DNA of 36,483 nucleotides, from positions 1 to 36,483 of IMG/VR virus record IMGVR_UViG_3300031539_000138; one strand, 5' to 3'. The notes beneath the pieces were generated by a model. It was not told where the DNA came from, made no database searches, and saw nothing but the letters and a program-made list of their open reading frames with translations. The position numbers and the translations under genes are program-made. Of the stretch, positions 1,500-7,970 are shown piece after piece. The stretch comes from a virus. Within the stretch, counting starts at the first letter, position 1, and each line of letters begins with the position of its first letter.

Positions 1500-3143
1500 A
1501 TGATCGTAAAGCGACCGATATCAAAGGCTTTTATCATTTTAAGTCTTTTCGCAATATTATTACTAGGATTTTCTACATTTGGATTTTCTACAATTTATTA
1601 TGTGAACACTGCCGCTGATGCTGGTGGTGATGGGACAACTCAAGAATTAACAGGGGAACACTGTGCTTTTAAGACTATTGCACAGGTTAATGCGGCATCT
1701 CCTGCGGCTGGTAGTTCTATTCTATTTAATAAGGGGAATGAGTGGCGAGAGAAACTGACTGTTCCTACTTCTGGGTCTGACGGTAGCCCGATTACTTTTG
1801 GGGCTTATGGGAGTGGGAATGACCCGATTATTAATGGGGCGGATTTGGTGACAACTTGGAGTGATGAGGGAAGTAATGTTTGGAGTGCCACTCTTGCTAC
1901 TGGACCCAATATCGTCTTTTTTGATGGAACTAAAGGCACTAATGATGTTACGCCTGATACTGATTATGACTGGTACTATGATTCTAATACTTTATATATA
2001 TATTCTACATATGACCCCGATACTGCTTATACAGATCCTGGAATAGAAACGGCAAAAAGGGATGGATTTCGATTAGATAATAAGGATTATATAACTATAC
2101 AAAATCTTCATATGACTCACGCCGACTGGCACGGGATAAAACTTCAAAATGGAGCAAGTAATGTTATCATAGATACTTGCACGATTGATTATTGCAGAGT
2201 CGATGGCATATGTTGCAATGATTCAGATGGGCCAGCAATAGATAGTGTAACAATTCAAAACTGTACAGTTTCATATTGTGATGAAACTGGAGTTTCTGTT
2301 GGTCAATATGCTACAAATTGGACAATTTATAATAATAATGTTCAATATTGTGATGAGTCTGGTGTGAATTCAGCATCAGGGATAGGAGTATGGGGGAATA
2401 ATGCTACTTCTGGTGGGCATATAATTCAGAATAATATAGTTAAAAACAATTGGCATGGAATACATATAGACCAAGTAGCAACAAGTTGTACTCTTCGATA
2501 TAACTGGGTTGAGAGCAATAATAATGAAGGTATTTTCATGGAAAAGGTTGTAGGTGATGAAGTTTATTATAATATTTCAATTAATAATGCCGCAAATGGC
2601 ATTGGATTGAACGGGGTAGCTGGAGACCCGTGTAACGAACAGAAAATTTATAATAACTTATGTTACGGAAATGGTAACTATAATATTTGTGTAGGAGGTA
2701 ATGGGGCTAATAGCGTATGTAATAATATTATTAAAAACAATATTTGTGATAATGCTACTTATCTTGAACTTTGCGCAAGAGATGGTGGTGAAAATGATGG
2801 CACAAATGGGAGTGGAAATGTTTACGAATATAATTGCTTCGGAACAGAATACACCGATTTTATAAGGTGGGGAGCAACCGATTATTCTACTTATGATACT
2901 TGGGAAACAGCCTATAGCGGCTCAACCTATTCAGTAGAATCCGACCCCCTTATGACCGACCCTGCCAATGACAATTTCAAACTCAATCCTCATTCACCCT
3001 GTGTCAATGCTGGGACAGACGTATCGCTGACAGAGGATTACGAAGGATTGAAGATTCGGCATGCCCCAGACATAGGGGCATATGAGAACCAAACTAATGC
3101 ACTGTTCTTTGCATGGAATTTATTTAAACAATGGTGGTATTAA
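1500..3143 (+). CDS. Secreted-looking right-handed beta-helix protein
   Basis: 547 aa. Residues 1-9 are basic and 10-30 form a long hydrophobic stretch (AFIILSLFAILLLGF), as in a signal peptide or signal anchor. A typical beta-helix entry follows (IYYVNTAADAGGDG), then an aromatic lead-in module at 113-184 ending DPDTAYTDPGI. Roughly residues 190-470 carry many short Asn/Ile-rich coils such as ITIQNL, VTIQNCTVSYC and NNIVKNNWHGIHI, the pattern of pectate-lyase-like parallel beta-helices. The C-terminus (PHSPCVNAGT, DIGAYE) is the usual closing motif of such proteins. Depolymerase or adhesin activity on host glycan is inferred; no catalytic residues are assigned. A signal peptide is odd for a virion protein. 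The lead-in module recurs in the next gene. Confidence 0.75.
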   Translation: MIVKRPISKAFIILSLFAILLLGFSTFGFSTIYYVNTAADAGGDGTTQELTGEHCAFKTIAQVNAASPAAGSSILFNKGNEWREKLTVPTSGSDGSPITFGAYGSGNDPIINGADLVTTWSDEGSNVWSATLATGPNIVFFDGTKGTNDVTPDTDYDWYYDSNTLYIYSTYDPDTAYTDPGIETAKRDGFRLDNKDYITIQNLHMTHADWHGIKLQNGASNVIIDTCTIDYCRVDGICCNDSDGPAIDSVTIQNCTVSYCDETGVSVGQYATNWTIYNNNVQYCDESGVNSASGIGVWGNNATSGGHIIQNNIVKNNWHGIHIDQVATSCTLRYNWVESNNNEGIFMEKVVGDEVYYNISINNAANGIGLNGVAGDPCNEQKIYNNLCYGNGNYNICVGGNGANSVCNNIIKNNICDNATYLELCARDGGENDGTNGSGNVYEYNCFGTEYTDFIRWGATDYSTYDTWETAYSGSTYSVESDPLMTDPANDNFKLNPHSPCVNAGTDVSLTEDYEGLKIRHAPDIGAYENQTNALFFAWNLFKQWWY

Positions 3144-3777
3144 AATGACCGTAAAAGAAATTAGAGATAAGGTAAGGATTCACATTGATGAGTCTACGAG
3201 CAACTCTGAAAGTTTGACAGACGCACAAATTAACAGCTTGATAGCAGATGCTACAGAAGAGGTTGCGTCTCTCTTCCTGACTTTAGACGATTCTTTTTAT
3301 ATTACTGATGCAACTTTTACTATACTGGCAAATATAGAAACATATGATTTACCTACTGGCTTTCTCCGCATTAAAGAATTAAGAGATGATAAGAAAAACC
3401 CCATTTTTAGATTGTACGAAATTGGGAAACGAAGTAACTTTTTGAATATTGGACATACAGTACGATATTACTTCCAACATGGGAAAATAGGATTCCTGGC
3501 CATCCCTTCCGCAAATGCGACATATCCATACAAATATATTAAGGCTGCTGACGTTTTAGCCCTAACGGCTAATGGGGATGACCTTGTCACTACCTGGGCA
3601 GACAATGGTTCTAATGTATGGAAAGCTGACTTAGTAACCGAACCTACCTACGTCTTTTTTGATGATGTACAGGGAACAAAGAGAGCATCGATAGCAGCCT
3701 GTACTGAAGCAAACGATTGGTTCTGGGCTGCCAGTGTGCTTTATGTCTATTCGACAACTGACCCCGATACTGCTTAT
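2012..3777 (+). repeat. Shared module copies in adjacent genes (19-nt identical core)
   Basis: The module spans 1836-2051 in the beta-helix gene and about 3577-3798 in the adaptor gene. Within it, 19 bases are identical at 2012-2030 and 3759-3777 (TGACCCCGATACTGCTTAT). The proteins also share LVTTW, GSNVW, VFFD and DPDTAY-DPGI in the same order and spacing. This indicates duplication or exchange between neighbouring virion genes. Confidence 0.8.
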
Positions 3778-4023
3778 GTCGACCCTGGAATTAAGGCATC
3801 AGTAAGAACTCTGGATGATGTAGTGCCAGACGTACCCGCATACCTTGGTCATACTTTAATTTCTATTGTGGCTGCTCTCCTGGCTATGGATATGGACGAA
3901 GAGACAAGTTCGTATTTGATTAATAAGAAGCGTGATTTGGAGAGGCAAATTATTGACTTATACAGCCAGAGGAACACCGATTTTCCGAGGATGGTTGAAA
4001 GCGACCCAGATTTGGAGTTGTAA
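3145..4023 (+). CDS. Head-tail adaptor-like protein with inserted module
   Basis: 292 aa. I chose ATG 3145, one base after the upstream stop, because the longer frame would lie inside the beta-helix gene. The N-terminus (KVRIHIDES, LTDAQINSLIADATEEV) resembles phage adaptor/connector proteins of the T7 gp11/P22 gp4 type, and the C-terminus (VVPDVPAYLGHTLISIVAAL) resembles their closing helices. Residues 145-218 are a separate module ending YVYSTTDPDTAYVDPGI, closely similar to residues 113-184 of the preceding beta-helix protein. It sits where adaptors usually have only a short loop before the PDVP helix. The adaptor assignment fits the nozzle-like gene downstream; it rests on motif recall, not a search. 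Confidence 0.6.
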   Translation: MTVKEIRDKVRIHIDESTSNSESLTDAQINSLIADATEEVASLFLTLDDSFYITDATFTILANIETYDLPTGFLRIKELRDDKKNPIFRLYEIGKRSNFLNIGHTVRYYFQHGKIGFLAIPSANATYPYKYIKAADVLALTANGDDLVTTWADNGSNVWKADLVTEPTYVFFDDVQGTKRASIAACTEANDWFWAASVLYVYSTTDPDTAYVDPGIKASVRTLDDVVPDVPAYLGHTLISIVAALLAMDMDEETSSYLINKKRDLERQIIDLYSQRNTDFPRMVESDPDLEL

Positions 4024-4025
4024 TT

Positions 4026-4727
4026 ATGCAAGAACTATATAAAAACAAAATTTGGCTACGACAGAAATATATAGATGGGGAATATTCTATACGCACCATA
4101 GCAAAGTTATGTGGTGTTTGCTATGGAACAATACAATATTGGTTAAAAAAATTTGATATTTCTAAGTGTCATAGAATGGGAAATATTATGGCTAATAATA
4201 CATATCGAAATAAAGATTGGTTATGCCAAAAATATGAAAACGAGGAACTTTCTACACTTGCTATAGCAAAATTATGCAGTGTTGATGATGGAACAATTTG
4301 GCAGTGGTTAAAGAGATTTAATATTCCACGAAGAACAATAGGGGATGCAGAAAAATTATATTATTTAAAAAATCCAGGCATTCAAAAGGGTGAAAATGAC
4401 CCTAATTGGAAGGGTGGGCGGCTAATAAAAAATGGTTATATTCAAATTCTTAAATCAGATCATCCATACGCAAATAACTGTGGTTATATTTATGAACATC
4501 GGCTTATCATGGAGAAAAAACTGGGTAGATATTTAACTAAGGACGAAATAGTACATCATATCAATGGCATTAGAGATGATAACCGCCCTGAGAACCTCGT
4601 TATTGAAGATAGGGAAACACATCAAACAGGTTATATCGGGGGTTATCAAGTTGGCACAACAACAGGATATATTAAAGCCGTGTCTGAAATAGCAAAAAGT
4701 TTAGCATCTAATGCTCGGGGGTATTGA
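4026..4727 (+). CDS. HNH homing endonuclease, copy 1 (two HTH units)
   Basis: 233 aa. It has two N-terminal helix-turn-helix units of the same kind, about residues 4-48 (IAKLCGVCYGTIQYWLKKF) and 57-100 (IAKLCSVDDGTIWQWLKRF). A WKGGR linker follows, then an HNH_3-type nuclease core with EHRLIMEKKLGRYL, DEIVHHINGIRDDNRPENL. The HH and downstream N are the expected HNH residues. The other three copies in the window have one HTH unit. The gene sits between adaptor and glycosyltransferase genes, same strand, 2 nt after the adaptor stop. Its 3' end (CTCGGGGG) supplies the ribosome site for the next gene, which overlaps it by one base. A free-standing homing endonuclease is the likely role; its target is unknown. 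Confidence 0.9.
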   Translation: MQELYKNKIWLRQKYIDGEYSIRTIAKLCGVCYGTIQYWLKKFDISKCHRMGNIMANNTYRNKDWLCQKYENEELSTLAIAKLCSVDDGTIWQWLKRFNIPRRTIGDAEKLYYLKNPGIQKGENDPNWKGGRLIKNGYIQILKSDHPYANNCGYIYEHRLIMEKKLGRYLTKDEIVHHINGIRDDNRPENLVIEDRETHQTGYIGGYQVGTTTGYIKAVSEIAKSLASNARGY

Positions 4728-6163
4728 TGATTTATGATTTAGGAAAACTTATAAAAAGGCTAAGCATAGTGATGATTGTGAAGAATGAAGAATCCTGTCT
4801 TGCGAGGTGCTTGGATTCTGTTAAGGGTGCTGATGAAATAATAATTTGTGATACGGGCTCCACTGACAAAACAATCGAAATAGCCAAAAAATATACGAAC
4901 AAGGTTTATACGGATTATAAATGGAACGATAATTTTGCAGAAGCCCGGAATCATGCAAAAAGCAAAGCAACTGGTGATTGGATATTGAGTATAGATGCAG
5001 ATGAAGTCTTGGCTAAAGATGGAATGGCAGAAATACAGAAAGCAATCCAGCGTTCTAAAATTAATAGAATTGCAGTCCACATGGAATATGCAACTGGCGG
5101 CTGGTGGTGGTTTCCAAGGTTATTTAAGAACGATGAAACCAATTGTTGGGCAGGGGCTATTCATAATTATCTTATGCCGATTGGCCCATATGAAGAAAGC
5201 AAGATTAAAATTATTGTTTATTCTAGCCTTAGTCATCTAAATGATGTTGATAGGACTTTACGAATATTGAAAAAGGAAGTAACAGATAATCCGCAATCCT
5301 CAAGAGAATTTTTTTACTTAGGGAGAGAATATATATATAGGCAAAATTGGATTGCAGCCCTTTATTGGCTTGAGCGGTATATTAACCTTGGTGGTTGGAC
5401 AGCAGAAAGAGCAGATGCTTTTCTGTTTATAGCAAAAGCATTATTTAAGTTACGTAGAAGGGACGAGGCAAAAACGGCTACTTTAGAGGCGATAAAAATA
5501 AATGCGGATTTTAAAGAGGCTATTGAATTTATGGCTTATATCTCCAGTAAAGAGAATAAAGATAGGTGGCTGTTGTTTGCGGAGTCGGCTAAAAGCAGGC
5601 ATGTATTGCTTAATAGGACTGTAGTAGAGCGTGATGCTGATTATTACAATGAGCTTTTTGCGAATAATTCTGATATGAGTCGATATGCCAACATTGATAA
5701 AAAAGTTGCCAAGACGGCAAAAGGGACAGTTCTTGAAATAGGCTGTGGAACAGGTGAGTTAGCAAAACGCTTACCTAAAGAACGATATTATGGATTCGAT
5801 TTTAGTAAAACAGCAGTGGGCATTGCCAATCATCCGCATATTTGGGAAGGAAATGCGTATCATAAGAAAAATTATAACGGCCGCAGTTATGATACTTACG
5901 TTGCCCTTGAAGTGTTAGAGCATGTAGATGATTATAAAGTATTAGAGCATCTCCCCAAAGGAAAACCAATTATATTTTCTGTGCCTTCTTTTCCAGACCC
6001 TTCACATTTACGATTCTATACTGAGGAATCAATGCGAAGAAGATATGAAGGTCATATAGACATTAAAAATGTTACGAGATTTAACATTCATGCTAAAGGT
6101 TGGGAAGAGAGTGAACCCGATACGAATGATTATATTTTGTTAGTAGAGGGAATAAGAAAGTAA
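4727..6163 (+). CDS. Family-2 glycosyltransferase fused to a methyltransferase
   Basis: 478 aa from ATG 4727, with GGGGG five bases upstream. Residues about 10-110 are a GT-A glycosyltransferase: LSIVMIVKNEE, IIICDTGSTDKT, and SIDADE as the metal-binding DxD-type motif. The middle (about 180-275) is helical and TPR-like (FFYLGREYIYRQNW, FLFIAKALFKL). The C-terminal part is a class I SAM methyltransferase: VLEIGCGTGELAKRL (motif I), YYGFDFSK, and VALEVLEHV. The order GT, TPR, methyltransferase suggests transfer of a sugar that is then methylated, on a virion protein or host surface glycan; the substrate is inference. It lies inside the tail-gene run, next to the nozzle gene. Confidence 0.85.
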   Translation: MIYDLGKLIKRLSIVMIVKNEESCLARCLDSVKGADEIIICDTGSTDKTIEIAKKYTNKVYTDYKWNDNFAEARNHAKSKATGDWILSIDADEVLAKDGMAEIQKAIQRSKINRIAVHMEYATGGWWWFPRLFKNDETNCWAGAIHNYLMPIGPYEESKIKIIVYSSLSHLNDVDRTLRILKKEVTDNPQSSREFFYLGREYIYRQNWIAALYWLERYINLGGWTAERADAFLFIAKALFKLRRRDEAKTATLEAIKINADFKEAIEFMAYISSKENKDRWLLFAESAKSRHVLLNRTVVERDADYYNELFANNSDMSRYANIDKKVAKTAKGTVLEIGCGTGELAKRLPKERYYGFDFSKTAVGIANHPHIWEGNAYHKKNYNGRSYDTYVALEVLEHVDDYKVLEHLPKGKPIIFSVPSFPDPSHLRFYTEESMRRRYEGHIDIKNVTRFNIHAKGWEESEPDTNDYILLVEGIRK

Positions 6164-6164
6164 C

Positions 6165-7970
6165 ATGAAACGCAAAAAAAACTTAACCGCATCCCCAGAA
6201 TATGACTTTAGCGGGGGTCGGATTGCAGCAGCTTCCCGGACTAAATTACATCCATCTCAACTTATTACAGCAAAAAATATTAATATCTTAGTTGATGGTG
6301 CGGCTGAAGTTCGGGGGGGATATGAAAAAGTTTCTACCGTTGCTTTCGGAGCAATTATAGACCGGTTTCTTCATTTTAAAACGCCTGAGTATGACAAGAT
6401 TATTGCATACGGTGGGGCTCATGTTAAACGGTTAGATACTGGTACTCCTGATGTTTGGACACCTCTTTCAGCTGCCATGCCGGACACAGATGATTACAGG
6501 TCAATGGTTATTGCTAAAGAAATGCTTTATATCGGTGCGAGTGATGCTACAGGGGTACGTAAATATTATCCAGCCGAGACGGTTTTGTGGCCTGCAGGCA
6601 TAACAAAACCCGCAGCTAAAGTCCAGAAGTCATCAGATGAAGATGGAAACCTCACGGGTGATTATTACTATTACTGGACATATTATAATTCTGTTACTGG
6701 TGAAGAGAGCGACCCCTCCCCTATCGCTGACAAGATAACAGTGGTGGCCAAGAAAGTAACCCTAAGTGATTTTGTTGCCAGCCTCGATGCACAAGTAGAT
6801 AAAATAAATATCTATAGAAACACAAGCGGGGTTTCTGAAAATTTTTATGTTGGTCAGAAAGACAACGATGCTAATAATTATACTGACGACTGCAAGGATG
6901 ACGATATTGGAGATGCAATAAGTTTTAGGAATGGTATTCCCCCAAAGTCAAATATCATGTTGTATTATCTTAATCACATGCTATATGTGGATTCAGAGAA
7001 TCCCACACGACTTTATTATTCTGAACCATTCAAGCCTGGTTCAGTCCACGCAAATAATTATTGGGGCATAGAAGAACAAAATGGTGGAGAAATTCTGGCG
7101 TTGGTCCCCAGTTACGGCAATATTGTCGTTATTAAGTCAAATGGGGTAGTTTGTTTGCATTTTAATGCTGAGTTTCCAGAGGATAGTATTTATACCCTTA
7201 TTGCTGCTGATTATGGGGGTGTTAGTTCTGCATCTGCAACTAATATAGGGGGGGATGTTATTTTTCTCTCTTCAGAAGGATTAAAAATAGTTACTGATGC
7301 GGGAAGCAGGGTAAGTGATATCGTCACTCCTATTGAGGGGGATTTTGGGACTAAGCCATTGATGCCGATTACTAATATATTTAGAGACTGTTTTCAAGCC
7401 ACGCTTTCAAGAGCTGTCGGTGTCTATTACGAATTCAAAAATCAATATCACATATCAGTTCCATATTATACTGAGGGTGATAATGATATGACTATTGTTT
7501 GGCATAGGGATTCAAATGTTTTTACTGTTCACGAAGATTTTAATGTTAAGGCTGGTGCTTTGTATAATGAATACAATCGTCTTTTAATTTATCGTTCACA
7601 TAATGACCAATATATTTATTGCCATGATAAAGGTAATACAGACGATACTGCGGCCATTGATTTTGAGGTTCAAACGGGGTGGCATGGAATAAATGATATT
7701 CCCGATAAAAAACGAATACGTCTTGTTTTCCTTACGGTTTATGGCACAGATGGTTTTGTGTTGAATTATGAGATTTTTAAGGGTTTTGAGGAAACGGCCA
7801 CAGCAAGGACAATCACACATGACGGTTCTGGGGGGGCTTCAAATGCGGCAATATATCGTCATGGAGTAAGAATAAAAGGCAGGGTATTTTCTACTAAATT
7901 TTATGGCAGTGTGAGTTTGCCAACGGGGATTAGCGGGTATCAATTTTTCTATCAACCTAAGGCATTATAA
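6165..7970 (+). CDS. Nozzle/tail-hub-like structural protein
   Basis: 601 aa. The N-terminus has DFSGGRIA, a P/Q-rich turn, KNINILVDGAAEVRGGYEKV, the pattern of podovirus tail nozzle and tail-stabilising proteins (T7 gp12/P22 gp10 type). The rest is beta-rich with propeller-like units such as MLYIGASDATGVRKYYP, LYYLNHMLYVDSENPTRLYYSE and GGDVIFLSSEGLKIVTDAG. There is no signal peptide or enzyme motif. It starts one base after the glycosyltransferase stop and overlaps the next gene by one base. The assignment is based on N-terminal pattern, length and the adaptor-like gene upstream; a generic tail protein is the alternative. Confidence 0.55.
   Translation: MKRKKNLTASPEYDFSGGRIAAASRTKLHPSQLITAKNINILVDGAAEVRGGYEKVSTVAFGAIIDRFLHFKTPEYDKIIAYGGAHVKRLDTGTPDVWTPLSAAMPDTDDYRSMVIAKEMLYIGASDATGVRKYYPAETVLWPAGITKPAAKVQKSSDEDGNLTGDYYYYWTYYNSVTGEESDPSPIADKITVVAKKVTLSDFVASLDAQVDKINIYRNTSGVSENFYVGQKDNDANNYTDDCKDDDIGDAISFRNGIPPKSNIMLYYLNHMLYVDSENPTRLYYSEPFKPGSVHANNYWGIEEQNGGEILALVPSYGNIVVIKSNGVVCLHFNAEFPEDSIYTLIAADYGGVSSASATNIGGDVIFLSSEGLKIVTDAGSRVSDIVTPIEGDFGTKPLMPITNIFRDCFQATLSRAVGVYYEFKNQYHISVPYYTEGDNDMTIVWHRDSNVFTVHEDFNVKAGALYNEYNRLLIYRSHNDQYIYCHDKGNTDDTAAIDFEVQTGWHGINDIPDKKRIRLVFLTVYGTDGFVLNYEIFKGFEETATARTITHDGSGGASNAAIYRHGVRIKGRVFSTKFYGSVSLPTGISGYQFFYQPKAL

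Follow-up and report, generated by a model that had tools for sequence, protein, structure and literature searches.

What is a segment of a beta-helix protein doing inside a head-tail adaptor? In a viral DNA stretch of 36,483 nucleotides (IMG/VR record IMGVR_UViG_3300031539_000138; hereafter the window), the gene for an adaptor-like protein adjoins the gene for a beta-helix protein, and a first-pass annotation had noticed a module common to both products. It had read this module as the lead-in of a beta-helix placed in a connector protein, and had proposed that it contacts carbohydrate or fibres on the neck of the virion and anchors the beta-helix protein there by like-to-like contacts. We analysed the repeat, its two host proteins and its relatives elsewhere.

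The adaptor gene and the upstream beta-helix gene share a repeat

Comparison of the window with itself gave a DNA repeat of 77 nt at 71% identity, between positions 1968-2044 and 3715-3791. It contains an identical core of 19 bases (TGACCCCGATACTGCTTAT), located at 2012-2030 and again at 3759-3777 (both on the + strand), which encodes the conserved residues DPDTAY. At the protein level, 43 of the 76 aligned residues (57%) are identical between the adaptor and the beta-helix segment. The local alignment of the two copies scores 226, whereas the highest score among 500 shuffles was 69, and a tblastn search of the window with the adaptor as query returned the repeat at E = 4e-23. These results confirm that the repeat between the two proteins is real and far above chance.

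The upstream copy spans residues 109-189 (1824..2066, + strand) of a 547-residue protein encoded at 1500..3143 (+ strand), which matches Pfam Beta_helix at E=9.5e-15 and is a second home of the module. The N-terminus of this protein (MIVKRPISKAFIILSLFAILLLGFSTFGFS) has the look of a typical signal peptide, so the protein is probably exported rather than virion-bound. Signal-peptide-like N-termini were also seen on beta-helix proteins of four other loci (L004:3726-6951, L005:5784-8716, L030:7009-10984 and L032:2038-4940), in each of which the product of the gene immediately upstream, a fibre-like or small protein, has such a start as well. The phages carrying these genes seem to be of different tail types; a tape-measure-like gene was seen in L030, for example. 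It is unexpected for exported proteins to be encoded within structural modules.

The 292-residue protein is an SU10-type head-tail adaptor

The assignment of the downstream protein (292 residues; 3145..4023, + strand) to the connectors or adaptors held. Its sole Pfam match is SU10_adaptor (PF24175; E=2e-11; 45.2 bits against a gathering cut-off of 27). When the full-length predicted model was searched with Foldseek, the best matches were the tail adaptors of VP1, SU10 and KHP30, and T7 gp11 and KP32 TTPA were also matched at lower ranks. The model itself is weak (pLDDT 51), though it and the Pfam profile both point to an adaptor and not to a non-connector fold. Sequence profiles of plain SU10-type adaptors gave no convincing match to adaptors in the PDB, whereas profiles of TTPA did reach them.

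Published adaptor structures consist of a helix bundle, a fibre dock and a C-terminal embracing part (PMC6702177, PMC9509320). Following this domain order, residues 1-138 (3145..3558, + strand) comprise helices 1 and 2 (residues 3-15 and 26-47 in the model) and a region that we take as the fibre-dock beta domain, the beta part being modelled at low confidence. Residues 222-292 (3808..4020, + strand) hold helices 3 and 4 (232-247 and 252-276) and the C-terminal tail, and here the motif PDVPAYLGH could be aligned with sister adaptors. SU10 gp11, T7 gp11 and KP32 TTPA share this plan, in which helices 2 and 3 flank the fibre-dock beta domain and an embracing segment forms the C-terminal part, and their genes likewise lie near a head closure/nozzle gene. 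They differ in that no extra Ig-like sandwich is described in them as published. Residues 57-99 of KP32 TTPA have been read as a lectin-like sheet (PMC5440376); this is a native element of that protein, unlike the module inserted in the window adaptor.

The gene for a head-closure/nozzle-like protein (6165..7970, + strand; phrog_511, E=3.8e-20; phrog_8040, head closure Hc3, E=2e-4) is separated from the adaptor gene by two genes. An HNH endonuclease gene (4026-4727), in which the helix-turn-helix part is internally duplicated (124 nt, 70%), directly follows the adaptor gene; next comes a glycosyltransferase family 2-methyltransferase fusion (4724-6163). The window yielded no portal or capsid gene.

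The module is an in-frame insertion absent from sister adaptors

Neither viral contigs nor annotated phages yielded relatives when scanned with the whole adaptor as a single protein. Three sister phages (L004, L005 and L007) were instead reached via the head-closure protein, which is 55-56% identical in them. In their contigs, the portal, scaffold and capsid genes are followed by other genes and then by the adaptor and head-closure genes; in L004 and L005, the genes between capsid and adaptor have signal-peptide-like starts.

The sister adaptors (209, 210 and 210 residues) can be aligned with the window adaptor from end to end, save for a gap at residues 139-221. They have nothing between the flanks 'P(A)A/EL' and '.D(D/E)S.PDVP.(Y/F)LGH'. 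The insert is thus 83 residues long and in frame (3559..3807, + strand), slightly larger than first annotated, with a conserved core at about 3571-3795. On its two sides along the chain are the final part of the beta region and helix 3, and the PF24175 match ends at residue 151, beside its start. A search of adaptor homologues for the insertion, as had been proposed at first pass, also turned up two less closely related SU10_adaptor proteins without it, in L012 and in the L003 record, both of which have open frames of normal length. A place for the module in the core fold of the adaptor is ruled out by the sister adaptors. The module had been described as replacing the short loop before the PDVPAYLGH helix; the location was right, but since the sisters have no residues between the flanks, the insert adds to this loop rather than replacing it.

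The module is predicted to be a self-folding Ig-like sandwich

AlphaFold2 prediction of the module alone, with 15 homologues, gave a small, mostly beta domain with high confidence (pLDDT 92.0, pTM 0.82). The module is also the best-modelled part of the full-length adaptor, where its strands reappear. In a Foldseek search of the PDB, the GH120 beta-xylosidase XylC (3vst_A) stood out by probability (0.97) and TM-score (0.73), but its E-value was 0.32, four matches ranked higher, and identity over the structural match was 9%. The top viral structural matches were mostly long proteins, one named as a xylosidase and one as a right-handed beta-helix protein. In XylC, an Ig-like sandwich interrupts the beta-helix and helps to organise the active site (PMC6887791).

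Like the XylC sandwich, whose fold it is predicted to share, the module of the beta-helix proteins lies within a right-handed beta-helix and interrupts it. The adaptor copy interrupts none: no beta-helix was found in the adaptor, SU10_adaptor being its only Pfam match, and hence it lacks the arrangement of GH120 and GH141 enzymes, in which catalytic residues on the beta-helix lie beside the sandwich. The relationship to XylC is remote, and the adaptor copy has no catalytic partner. Among the 15 module members, no Pfam family covered the module, and a single member touched GH141_M (E=0.21). Searches with the module found no match in annotated phages even at E=10 and no convincing match to PDB sequences. 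A pooled alignment of adaptors and modules was misaligned and was left out. The module is best read as a nested, self-folding accessory Ig-like sandwich and not as a coil of the beta-helix; the predicted fold thus does not support its description as a beta-helix lead-in.

The module recurs in T7-type adaptors

In scans with the module only, the host proteins were beta-helix proteins and, apart from these, only head-tail adaptors. Four other viral contigs (L010, L043, L044 and L051), from viruses unrelated to that of the window, encode a T7-gp11-like TTPA (phrog_394, E 1e-42 to 1e-49) that carries the module, in all four at the identical site, after 'HPWNFA.KR..L' and before '..LP.DCLRV'. Two of these contigs are near-identical and come from different samples. 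None of the more than 100 TTPA relatives in annotated phages has the module. In one of these relatives, from L052 (MW202510), the TTPA (L052:5992-6822) has an E1_FCCH domain (PF16190), unrelated to the module, at the same site, which indicates that this site accepts plug-in domains.

Several further observations were made at these loci. The TTPB-like proteins downstream in L043 and L010 also have FCCH domains, together with LamG or CBM_5_12 domains. In L010, tandem TTPA paralogues (L010:2702-3631 and 3632-4414) are encoded, one with the module and one without, so that a mixed neck ring is conceivable. The species-genome collection yielded a single copy, on a contig of a Nanoarchaeota MAG (L038), within an open frame of 2082 residues with beta-helix and other repeats. 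Another module-bearing protein (L045:3152-5605) has, by reading, an apparent calcineurin-like phosphoesterase segment after the module.

The fusion of an SU10-type adaptor with the module is known from a single contig, as might be seen if the metagenome contig had been misjoined. An assembly chimera is nevertheless extremely unlikely: a single reading frame stays open and intact across both junctions, the window contains no near-identical source of the copy, and TTPA is fused with the module in a comparable way in four contigs, including the near-identical pair from separate samples.

The two window copies appear to be old

Synonymous codons agree between the two window copies at 19 of 40 positions, against 16.6 expected. 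This is the background level, so the copies do not appear to be recent; judging by their codons they are old, and the 19-base identity should not be over-read. The adaptor copy is also closer to the TTPA copy of L010 (64%) than to its neighbour in the window (57%). Both results argue against a recent duplication from the beta-helix gene, which we consider improbable even though the two genes adjoin, share the identical core, and can be joined in a tree that topology tests did not reject (in-cis origin, p-AU 0.40). A single origin of all adaptor copies was not rejected either (p-AU 0.11). In the module tree, the TTPA copies grouped together (91/87), while the place of the window adaptor copy was not settled. 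Because the adaptor families and the sites differ, we count two insertion events, possibly from related donors. The ancestral home of the module was probably inside beta-helix proteins of a carbohydrate-enzyme-like kind.

A possible docking or adhesion surface on the neck

What might the module do on the adaptor? On balance, we favour a plug-in domain that can be exchanged and lies on the outside of the neck, serving fibre or spike docking or weak surface binding; we infer its outward position, copy number and function as follows. The fibre-dock domain would have gained an Ig-like sandwich, in frame, at its C-terminal edge. The adaptors of relatives form a ring of twelve subunits, so up to twelve copies could surround the outer neck. 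There the module would provide an add-on surface that either widens the socket for a tail fibre or spike or weakly binds a surface sugar. In Vibrio phage OWB, TTPA and TTPB are reported to bind a host receptor (PMC7241545), which indicates that neck proteins can meet the cell surface. This report, the location at the fibre dock and the unrelated domain accepted at the TTPA site would all fit an outward docking or adhesion role. The carbohydrate- or fibre-contacting role suggested at first pass therefore survives as the leading idea; none of the 15 module members matched a CBM family, and no ligand or catalytic residues were identified in the module.

The other part of that suggestion, that like-to-like contacts tether the adjacent beta-helix protein to the neck, found no support and seems very unlikely to us. 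The copies are encoded in adjacent genes and are 57% identical, but the beta-helix protein has a signal-peptide-like N-terminus. Moreover, a diverged module is present in the beta-helix proteins of L004 and L005, whose adaptors are nonetheless plain, and each TTPA contig shows one module copy, though these contigs are fragments.

A neutral passenger, tolerated in a loop and doing nothing important on the neck, is a more serious alternative, but still an unlikely one. The insertion loop is variable, the sisters of the window phage live without the module, and so do the many TTPA relatives in annotated phages. However, the protein core of the module is kept (57-64% identical) and agreement at synonymous codons stays at the background level, a pattern that points to purifying selection; selection on the module is thus suggested by the codon comparison. 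In addition, adaptors recur as hosts, and no other host outside the beta-helix proteins was found.

Returning to the plug-in domain, the order of the sites along the chains would place the TTPA site at the N-terminal edge of the fibre dock and the window site at its C-terminal edge, so that both adaptor families appear to have taken the module at an end of one domain. These two edges may lie close together in space. Possibly, then, though we hold this only tentatively, podophage adaptors have converged on the fibre-dock region as a socket in which beta-domains can be exchanged. SU10-type and T7-type adaptors would each have acquired the module on their own, at edges that are opposite in sequence but adjoin in space, and the module would change the fibre, spike or sugar engaged by the neck.

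Ig-like and other accessory domains decorate phage virion proteins such as major tail proteins. The module resembles these in being a small beta-domain that a conserved structural protein may carry or lack, and differs in its position on a neck adaptor, at the fibre dock, and in being common to beta-helix proteins. The E1_FCCH insert of L052 shares the site of the module in other TTPAs and is a different domain. Accessory beta-domains on virion proteins are therefore already known; the domain, its place and its recurrence are new here. The literature that we searched, which covers the field in part, does not describe any adaptor with an insert of this kind.

The analysis thus adds a small mobile domain, outside the Pfam families, that is found in both beta-helix proteins and head-tail connectors. 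Residues 139-221 offer a defined deletion, for which the sisters with plain adaptors are natural controls. Neck adaptors are usually viewed as fixed plumbing; if their fibre dock repeatedly accepts foreign domains, surface contacts at the neck could be changed without changing the fibres.
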